The translations under genes and the position numbers were made by a program. The notes below the pieces were generated by a model. The model saw only the letters and a program-made list of their open reading frames with translations. It did no database searches and was not told where the DNA came from. Source: Candidatus Endomicrobiellum incisitermitis (lineage in GTDB: Bacteria > Elusimicrobiota > Endomicrobiia > Endomicrobiales > Endomicrobiaceae). From it: a stretch of 64,000 bases of DNA. Positions 14,880-58,205 of this stretch are shown here, piece after piece; positions within the stretch are counted from its first letter, which is position 1; the number at the start of each line of letters is the position of its first letter. The stretch spans positions 1 to 64,000 of the forward strand of contig JAISOG010000035.1 in assembly GCA_031275795.1 (NCBI GenBank), given 5' to 3'.

Positions 14880-14960
14880 GGGCTTAATGCTAAATGTTTA
14901 TTGCTCATAAGCCGCTCTTTAAGGTAACTCCGATAAGGTTCTAAGCTAGACCAACATCCG
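14880..14960 (-). repeat. Partial copy of palindromic-element arm within a degenerate gene 3' end
   Basis: Reverse complement TTGGTCTAGCTTAGAACCTTATCGGAGTTACCTTAAAGAGCGGCTTATGAGCAATAAACATTTAGC matches the left arm of the 57-58 kb elements and reads SLEPYRSYLKERLMSNKHLA…. Confidence 0.75.
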
Positions 14961-14981
14961 CTGACACAGAAATAGTTAGTT

Positions 14982-15180
14982 TGGTCTAGTTTAGAATCTT
15001 ATCTATGTTACTAAGAGCAATCGCAACAAACATTTAATCAAATTAGCAAACTCGCAAAATGAAAAGACAAGAAAGACATAAATGAATTTTGCTTCAGACA
15101 ATGCTAATTTGCAATATTAAATGTTTATTGCTCATAAGCCGCTCTTAGAGGTAACTCCGATAAGATTCTAAACTAGACCA
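14982..15180. repeat. Long imperfect palindromic element (copy 4 of family)
   Basis: Ends TGGTCTAGTTTAGAATCTTATC … GATAAGATTCTAAACTAGACCA; arms GAGCAAT..CAACAAACATTTAAT and ATTAAATGTTTATTGCTC; same as copies at 57.1-58.0 kb. Confidence 0.85.
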
Positions 15181-15299
15181 ACATCCGCCGTATAATTTGT
15201 AAAAGATCAAACACATATTAGACTTTGAAAATATATAATCCTTTGTTAAAGGAAGGATATTCTTGCTTTGACAAAGGCAAAATTTTTGAGGGATTCTAA

Positions 15300-15617
15300 T
15301 ATGAGCTATATTCAAATTTACCACAAAATTGGAGCAAAAGGGGCAATAAAAGCGCTGCAAAAAGCAGTAGTAGAAAGCCAAATAAGCCAAGAAGTCCAAA
15401 GAGTAATGCCTACATAGAGCGTTTCAACAGAACTTTAAGAGAACAGTTTTTTAACAGCTATGAAGGAGATTTAACAGACATAGAAGGAGTAGAAGAAGAC
15501 TTAAAAGACTACTTGTTTTGGTATAATAGCAAAAAGGTTCACCAAGGGTTAAATTGGCAAACGCCTTTTGATTTCATTCAACAGTGCTTAATGCTTCAAA
15601 AGTCTAATATGTTATGA
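15300..15617 (+). pseudogene. IS481/IS3-like transposase remnant (integrase core C-terminus)
   Basis: Reads …SPKSNAYIERFNRTLREQFFNSYEGDLTDIEGVEEDLKDYLFWYNSKKVHQGLNWQTPFDFIQQCL…*; no intact upstream ORF. The start is approximate. Confidence 0.8.
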
Positions 15618-57088: not shown

Positions 57089-57276
57089 AGATAGTTTAGT
57101 GTTTTATCGGAATTACCTTAAAGAGCGGCTTATGAGCAATAAACATTTAATGTTAAATTGTATGAAGCTAAATACAGTTATGTCTTTCTTGTCTTATTAT
57201 TTTGCGAGTTTGCTAATTTGATTAAATGTTTGTTGCGATTGCTCTGGTAACGTAGATAAGATTCTAAAGTAGACCA
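57089..57276. repeat. Palindromic element copy 1 (left end degenerate)
   Basis: AGATAGTTTAGTGTTTTATCGGAATTACC…GTAACGTAGATAAGATTCTAAAGTAGACCA. Confidence 0.75.
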
Positions 57277-57363
57277 ACCAAAAAAGTAGTGAGGAGGATG
57301 GAAGTTTGACTGTCTGTGCGGCGTATGAGCGGTTGCTTAATACTTAGGGACAATATACTGTAT

Positions 57364-57560
57364 AGGTCTAGTTTAGAATCTTAACGGAGTTACCTCAAAG
57401 AGCGGTTTATGAGCAATAAACATTTAATATTTCAAATTAGCAGTGTCTGAGCAAAATTCATTTATGTCTTTCTTGTCTTATTATTTTGCGAGTTTGCTAA
57501 TTTGATTAAATGTTTATTGCGATTGCTCTAGTAACGTAGATAAGATTCTAAACCAGACCA
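57364..57560. repeat. Palindromic element copy 2
   Basis: AGGTCTAGTTTAGAATCTTAACGGAGTTACC…AGTAACGTAGATAAGATTCTAAACCAGACCA; inner GAGCAATAAACATTTAAT / ATTAAATGTTTATTGCGATTGCTC. Confidence 0.9.
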
Positions 57561-57653
57561 ACCAAACTACTGAGGAGGAAAGATTGAGTGTCTATACACT
57601 GTATGAGAGGTTGCTTAATGACTTAAGGACAATCGTTGCTAACTATTCTGTAT

Positions 57654-58013
57654 AGGTCTAGTTTAGAATCTTAACGGAGTTACCTCAAAGAGCAGCTTAT
57701 GAGCAATAAACATTTAATATTGCAAAAGGAGTCTCTATAAAAACTCTAATGCCTATAATTGCTGTGAATTTTTTGACAATGCAAGGCAAAAAACACAGGG
57801 ATTATCGTGTCATAAACACAAGTTTTTTAACGCAGCAGTGTCAAAAAAGGCATAGTAAGGATATGCGCTAAGGTTTTTAGAGAGGCCCCATTCAGTGTTT
57901 GAAGCAAAATTCATTTATGTCTTTCTTGTCTTTTTATTTTGCGAGTTTGCTAATTTGATTAAATGTTTATTGCGATTGCTCTAGTAACGTAGATAAGGTT
58001 CTAAACTGGACCA
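57654..58013. repeat. Palindromic element copy 3, with ~165 bp nested insertion
   Basis: Same ends as copy 2; central part replaced or expanded by 57724-57890. Confidence 0.85.
57724..57890. repeat. Nested second palindromic sequence inside copy 3
   Basis: CTCTATAAAAAC … GGTTTTTAGAGAG and TTTTTTGACA (57769) … TGTCAAAAAA (57839) inverted repeats. Confidence 0.6.
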
Positions 58014-58028
58014 ACCACAAACTACTAT

Positions 58029-58205
58029 ATGTGTCAGTTTGAGGTGAAGAAAGCGGCGTATGAGAGCTTGCTTAATGATTTAGAGACTATGCTGGATAGG
58101 TCTGGGTTAGAACCTTATCGGAGTTACCTCAAAGAGCGGTCTATGAGCAACAAACATTTAATATTTCAAATTAGTATGTGTTTGAACTTTTACAGCAAAA
58201 ACTAA
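58029..58205 (+). CDS. Short ORF (58 aa) of unknown function embedded in the repeat array; may be a gene relic
   Basis: MCQFEVKKAAYESLLNDLETMLDRSGLEPYRSYLKERSMSNKHLIFQISMCLNFYSKN*; related degenerate frames occur upstream and at 14.8-14.96 kb (-). Confidence 0.35.
   Translation: MCQFEVKKAAYESLLNDLETMLDRSGLEPYRSYLKERSMSNKHLIFQISMCLNFYSKN
58102..58175. repeat. Partial (left-arm) copy of palindromic element
   Basis: GATAGGTCTGGGTTAGAACCTTATCGGAGTTACCTCAAAGAGCGGTCTATGAGCAACAAACATTTAATATTTCAAATTAG. Confidence 0.8.

Follow-up and report, generated by a model that had tools for sequence, protein, structure and literature searches.

Between mrdA and a cluster of Tad-like genes, the 64,000-nucleotide stretch analysed here (the window) carries a tandem array of imperfect long palindromes, raising the question of what these palindromes are and how they came to lie there. 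The array spans 57,092-58,185 and is made up of three full units followed by a fragment of a left arm; its parts, together with a second array in the window, are as follows.

57092-57275, + strand: unit 1, a short-form outer palindrome with a degenerate loop; the site after mrdA matches that of an element in two relatives (G017 and G023)
57276-57364, + strand: spacer 1, similar to the other spacers and to decayed repeat-protein gene fragments elsewhere
57365-57559, + strand: unit 2, a short-form outer palindrome, the reference copy
57560-57654, + strand: spacer 2
57655-58012, + strand: unit 3, the long (composite) form, in which outer arms flank a core
57729-57888, + strand: core palindrome within unit 3, 160 bp, with ends GAGTCTCTATAAAAAC / GTTTTTAGAGAGGCCC (family consensus GGGTCTGTCTAAAAAC)
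58013-58098, + strand: spacer 3
58099-58185, + strand: unit 4, a left-arm fragment
14889-15179, - strand: second array, a left-arm fragment plus one short-form unit of the same palindrome family

The unit boundaries in the initial annotation were right to within about 3 bp (57092-57275, 57365-57559 and 57655-58012 for the complete units, 58099-58185 for the fragment), and its description of the spacers as mutually similar is borne out by comparison of the array spacers, which are about 85-95 bp long and related to one another. The direct-repeat spacings measure 277, 290 and 444 bp; composite unit 3 is longer because the 160-bp extra palindrome sits in its left arm (57729-57888). The units had also been described as folding back on themselves, and computed folding agrees, since 57364-57560 (unit 2) gives -72.6 kcal/mol against -35.2 +/- 3.8 in shuffled sequences (z -9.7). 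The window has 10 occurrences of the motif GAGCAATAAACATTTAAT, where chance would give 0.33. Past unit 4 lies the Tad-like gene flank, and the same flank in G017 bears an element remnant. The extreme end of the array (58175-58195) resembles a small stretch, TGTAAAAGTCCAAACACATGTTGGAC...ACTTGACACA, that abuts outer copies in two relatives (L038 and L044) and is element-like there, with inverted TGT/ACA ends.

The array might have been a one-off local duplication, in which case no further copies would be expected, but the outer palindrome is present at dozens of places in this genome (G000, a 1.24-Mb draft in 49 contigs) and at more in relatives. There are roughly 50 places per genome; in the stretches read around copies in G000, left arms number 49 and right arms 55, both counts being approximate. 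Similar numbers occur in 2 of 35 sampled Candidatus Endomicrobiellum relatives (G017 and G023), while one further relative in the genus gave a 23-nt match alone, taken as chance, and none of 24 genomes outside the genus contained the outer family. Named records bearing the core belong to Candidatus Endomicrobiellum species and one Endomicrobium sp. (Elusimicrobiota). In G000, contigs C19, C29, C35, C48 and C49 start in or beside an element and C8, C33 and C44 carry one at or near their ends; palindromic elements would help explain breaks in these assemblies. PMC11257099, which describes symbionts of termite-gut flagellates from this group, reports a random distribution of transposons, and the available part of its text makes no mention of a palindromic family. 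The palindromes thus appear to be a previously undescribed, dispersed, hairpin-shaped repeat family of endosymbionts of termite-gut flagellates.

The second array of the window (14889-15179) lies about 0.9 kb upstream of the 16S rRNA gene. Beside it, upstream of the rRNA operon, is a truncated insertion-sequence transposase (15270-15600), in which a piece that looks N-terminal is followed immediately by the C-terminal part of an rve_3 integrase core (Pfam E 7e-13). Similar fragments adjoin other arrays (L021, L071 and L081), and nothing ties the ends of the gene fragment beside the second array to the palindromic elements.

Two forms of the palindrome exist, a short one of about 197 bp and a composite of about 360 bp with a second palindrome of about 160 bp, the core, in its left arm. 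The insertion point of the core is always identical among composites: short copies read CAAATTAGCAGTG and composites read CAAA, then the core, then ATTCAGTG, or close variants of this. In the short form CAAATTAGCA pairs with the right-arm TGCTAATTTG, a pairing that is broken in the long form, so the simplest account is that the core inserted into a short palindrome that was still intact. The same core junction is common to about 18 long copies, which indicates that the composite multiplied after one nesting event. The left flanks of several outer copies (L055, L058, L060, L070, L083 and L105) contain a degenerate repeat, CTGACTTGACTGGTTTTAAG...AAAGTGTTATA, possibly an older, third palindromic layer.

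Judged by its sequence, the core is an independent MITE-like family across the genus, because it has GGGTCTGTCTAAAAAC inverted ends and 4-bp target duplications. The 4-bp flanks are exactly identical in 8 of the 23 solo core copies with both ends present, against a shuffle mean of 1.1; none of 20,000 shuffles scored as high, and the peak occurs at offset 0 only, with the ends abutting exactly. Around nested core copies no target duplication was found (0 of 18). For the core, the MITE suggested by the initial annotation is thus well supported. The core occurs without outer arms in G020 (41 matches), and a few core matches each were found in G004, G009, G016, G024 and G027. The GGGTCTGTCTAAAAAC ends are present on core copies of G000, G017 and G020 and also in G010 and G013; they are found with other interiors in G010, G013 and G032, and they bound other palindromes as well as bare 37-38-bp hairpins in G010, G013 and G020. 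The bare hairpins comprise little beyond the inverted ends of the core (L304 1479-1516; L308 680-716; L315 565-601) and are apparently minimal elements.

The outer palindrome behaves differently. Its many dispersed copies are non-coding and mostly intergenic, which makes a MITE plausible for this part too, but a fixed-offset target duplication is absent: no peak rose above shuffles at any offset pair. For this reason it is dispersal that points to mobility of the outer palindrome, and its exact ends, which vary among dispersed copies, are presumed. The three best candidates for clean empty sites of outer copies proved to be decayed shared insertions. Copies cluster by genome beyond expectation (for G000, 6 changes against 16.5 when shuffled, on a tree that is mostly unresolved), as concerted evolution would give. 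Some outer copies sit in decayed repeat-protein genes, a family judged by eye, and the array spacers resemble those fragments, suggesting that the arrays may have begun as a copy in such a gene with its flank carried along.

An outer palindrome with no fixed ends or target duplication, found in arrays that carry flanking spacer DNA, as copies that look homogenised within genomes and that are commonly partial or inverted, could also be a recombinogenic repeat rather than a transposable one. It would then have spread in the manner of a satellite, by recombination copying and hairpin template switching, leaving the core alone as a true MITE. This is considered unlikely, as the copies occupy dozens of unrelated intergenic sites, many of them common to several species, and such a pattern is hard to reach through homologous recombination alone.

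Long hairpins invite a functional explanation, in which the palindromes would be conserved structured RNAs or regulatory hairpins, such as terminators or processing sites. The folds are very stable, copies are mostly intergenic, and the core shows a slight excess of paired changes (25 pairs against 18.3 +/- 2.5 in shuffles, counted on the mapped consensus structure). Relatedness, hairpin-templated repair or weak constraint might each account for that small excess, which leaves some room for structural constraint; RNAalifold consensus folding of the core alignment returned no pairs, probably owing to gaps. The outer form, however, has no compensatory excess: across 49 copies, 91.9% of cells hold standard pairs, versus 91.6 +/- 0.2% with shuffled partners, and the covariation score is 0.064 versus 0.059 shuffled. 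As a consensus, the core forms a near-perfect hairpin (-82.9 kcal/mol) around which single copies have decayed (fold z from -10 to +0.3), and many copies of the family now fold poorly. Furthermore, shared sites show copy loss or truncation, and a search of the catalogued RNA families in Rfam produced no match at or near the gathering score (best E 0.17, sub-threshold chance matches). Retention for function is therefore very improbable.

A Rickettsia-palindromic-element-like invader, adding in-frame peptides to proteins, had been put forward in the initial annotation. The similar size and palindromy, and a host that is likewise intracellular with a reduced genome, speak for it, but none of the 49 outer copies has an open frame in any frame and their lengths modulo 3 are random (13/17/19), so that this reading can scarcely be credited. 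A protein-coding origin was rejected as well: the left arm is partly readable (RSYLKERxMSNKHLI), yet no copy is open throughout. Signs of selection, whether on structure or on coding, are absent from the outer form.

A mobilising enzyme is presumed for both layers, and searches for Y1, IS66 and DDE_Tnp_1 found no transposase matching the core or the outer palindrome. There was no match to Y1 (RAYT, PF01797) in G000 or G023, and a RAYT/Y1 origin was rejected because Y1 is absent from G000. Neither IS66 nor DDE_Tnp_1 matched in G000. DDE_Tnp_1 was discarded as a partner of the core, the genes in G004, G020 and G013 being without core ends, and so was IS66: it was considered for a QPGHKG-like fragment beside the inverted end in G010, but Pfam and plasmid searches gave no support and the IS66 domain was found in 0 of 36 genomes. 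Also in G010, a core-type inverted end (L309, 1501 onward) adjoins remnants of at least two reading frames without assignment; the fragment gave no match and is a possible trace of an autonomous relative of the core. A phage origin was also rejected, the array having no match in phages and the outer and core patterns none in viral contigs; the sole phage hit to the inverted end falls inside a phage coding gene.

How the array came to lie between mrdA and the Tad-like genes can be approached by comparison with relatives. Most sites in G000 that are comparable on both flanks are common to G017 or G023, and across the three species shared sites display losses, decay, changes between short and long forms and changes in unit number. 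At one insertion site the palindromic element lies in opposite orientations in G023 (L038) and G017 (L044). mrdA and rodA are widely paired genes. In G017 and G023 mrdA is followed by an element and then by rodA, so the description of the palindromes as lying between mrdA and a Tad-like cluster holds for G000 but not for these two relatives, where an element separates mrdA and rodA. The mrdA-rodA gap contains a core-like element in G020, and no element was seen in that of G004. Two gene orders occur in G000, one being mrdA, the array and the Tad-like genes, and the other ribF, another array and rodA (the names ribF and Tad-like were assigned by reading the sequence). Elements in G023 and G017 join ribF to a different neighbour than in G000, and in G017 a tRNA gene and a remnant of an element adjoin the Tad-like genes. 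Another site in G000 (L076) joins flanks found on separate G017 contigs.

mrdA and rodA, adjacent in relatives, are separated in G000 exactly at two arrays, and the G000-specific junctions carry two arrays and one further element, which is what recombination between copies predicts. We infer that recombination between arrays caused the separation, and the palindrome arrays are a probable rearrangement hotspot. The G000 assembly is a draft in 49 contigs, however, and sequences wrongly joined at these repeats could give the appearance of rearrangement. The recombination-prone array envisaged at the outset gains support from the changes in unit number, form and orientation and from the gene-order changes at arrays.

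The explanation preferred here, held with a probability of about 0.7, sees in these palindromes a family of non-autonomous, MITE-like elements of Ca. Endomicrobiellum that is built in two layers. By its sequence, the core (about 160 bp) moved as a MITE, with GGGTCTGTCTAAAAAC inverted ends and a 4-bp, AT-rich duplication of the target. In the common ancestor of the three species one core copy would have landed in the left arm of the outer palindrome of about 197 bp, after which both the short form and the composite would have multiplied to about 50 places per genome. Once inserted, copies would drift, with base pairing under no selection, and would also lose parts and recombine with one another; a founder structure followed by drift is proposed because outer pairs match shuffles and core copies decay around a stable consensus. 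Recombination between copies would create tandem arrays such as 57092-58185, with flanking DNA carried along as spacer, and would invert elements and join distant genes, and recombination between arrays would have parted mrdA from rodA in G000. A tentative extension, possible but short of likely, is that palindromes grow by nesting, with hairpin elements inserting preferentially into each other's arms (the core in the outer palindrome, and the outer palindrome in an older, palindrome-like repeat of the flank). Composite hairpins would thereby become the unit that is amplified and, in these endosymbionts, the chief cause of chromosome rearrangement.

REP/BIME sequences are dispersed extragenic palindromes, sometimes clustered, that go with RAYT transposases. 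The family described here shares their dispersal, extragenic position and occasional clusters, but its palindromes are much longer and no Y1 transposase is present in G000 or G023. Bacterial MITEs (PMC10969869) resemble the core in being short, non-coding and numerous, with inverted ends and target duplication, whereas here a single hairpin accounts for nearly the whole element, no autonomous partner was found and a nested composite has been amplified as a unit and arranged in tandem arrays. Rickettsia palindromic elements, as outlined in the same source (PMC10969869, citing Ogata et al.), are likewise palindromes of about 150 bp dispersed in the reduced genome of an intracellular bacterium, but they encode an ORF, often in frame in genes, and the palindromes here have no open frame. 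The closest published case found, likened by description, is that of the pithovirus M1/M2 elements (PMC10664404), MITE-like palindromes of about 140 bp in regularly spaced intergenic clusters, of which two kinds move together, no transposase is clearly identified and recombination is discussed as an alternative means of spread. Clustered MITE-like long palindromes of two kinds with no settled transposase are common to both systems; M1 and M2, however, lie next to each other in alternation and have a putative TA duplication, whereas here the two kinds are nested, the core has a 4-bp duplication and the host is bacterial.

The present case is set apart by the nested two-palindrome composite and by the junctions specific to G000 that lie at arrays. 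Loss of repeats and a frozen gene order are the usual expectation for endosymbiont genomes. The reduced genome studied here holds about 50 copies of a nested palindromic element, and gene order differs among close species at these copies. If the junctions hold, closely related symbionts preserve in this family a comparable record of how elements inserted and nested and how genomes were rearranged.
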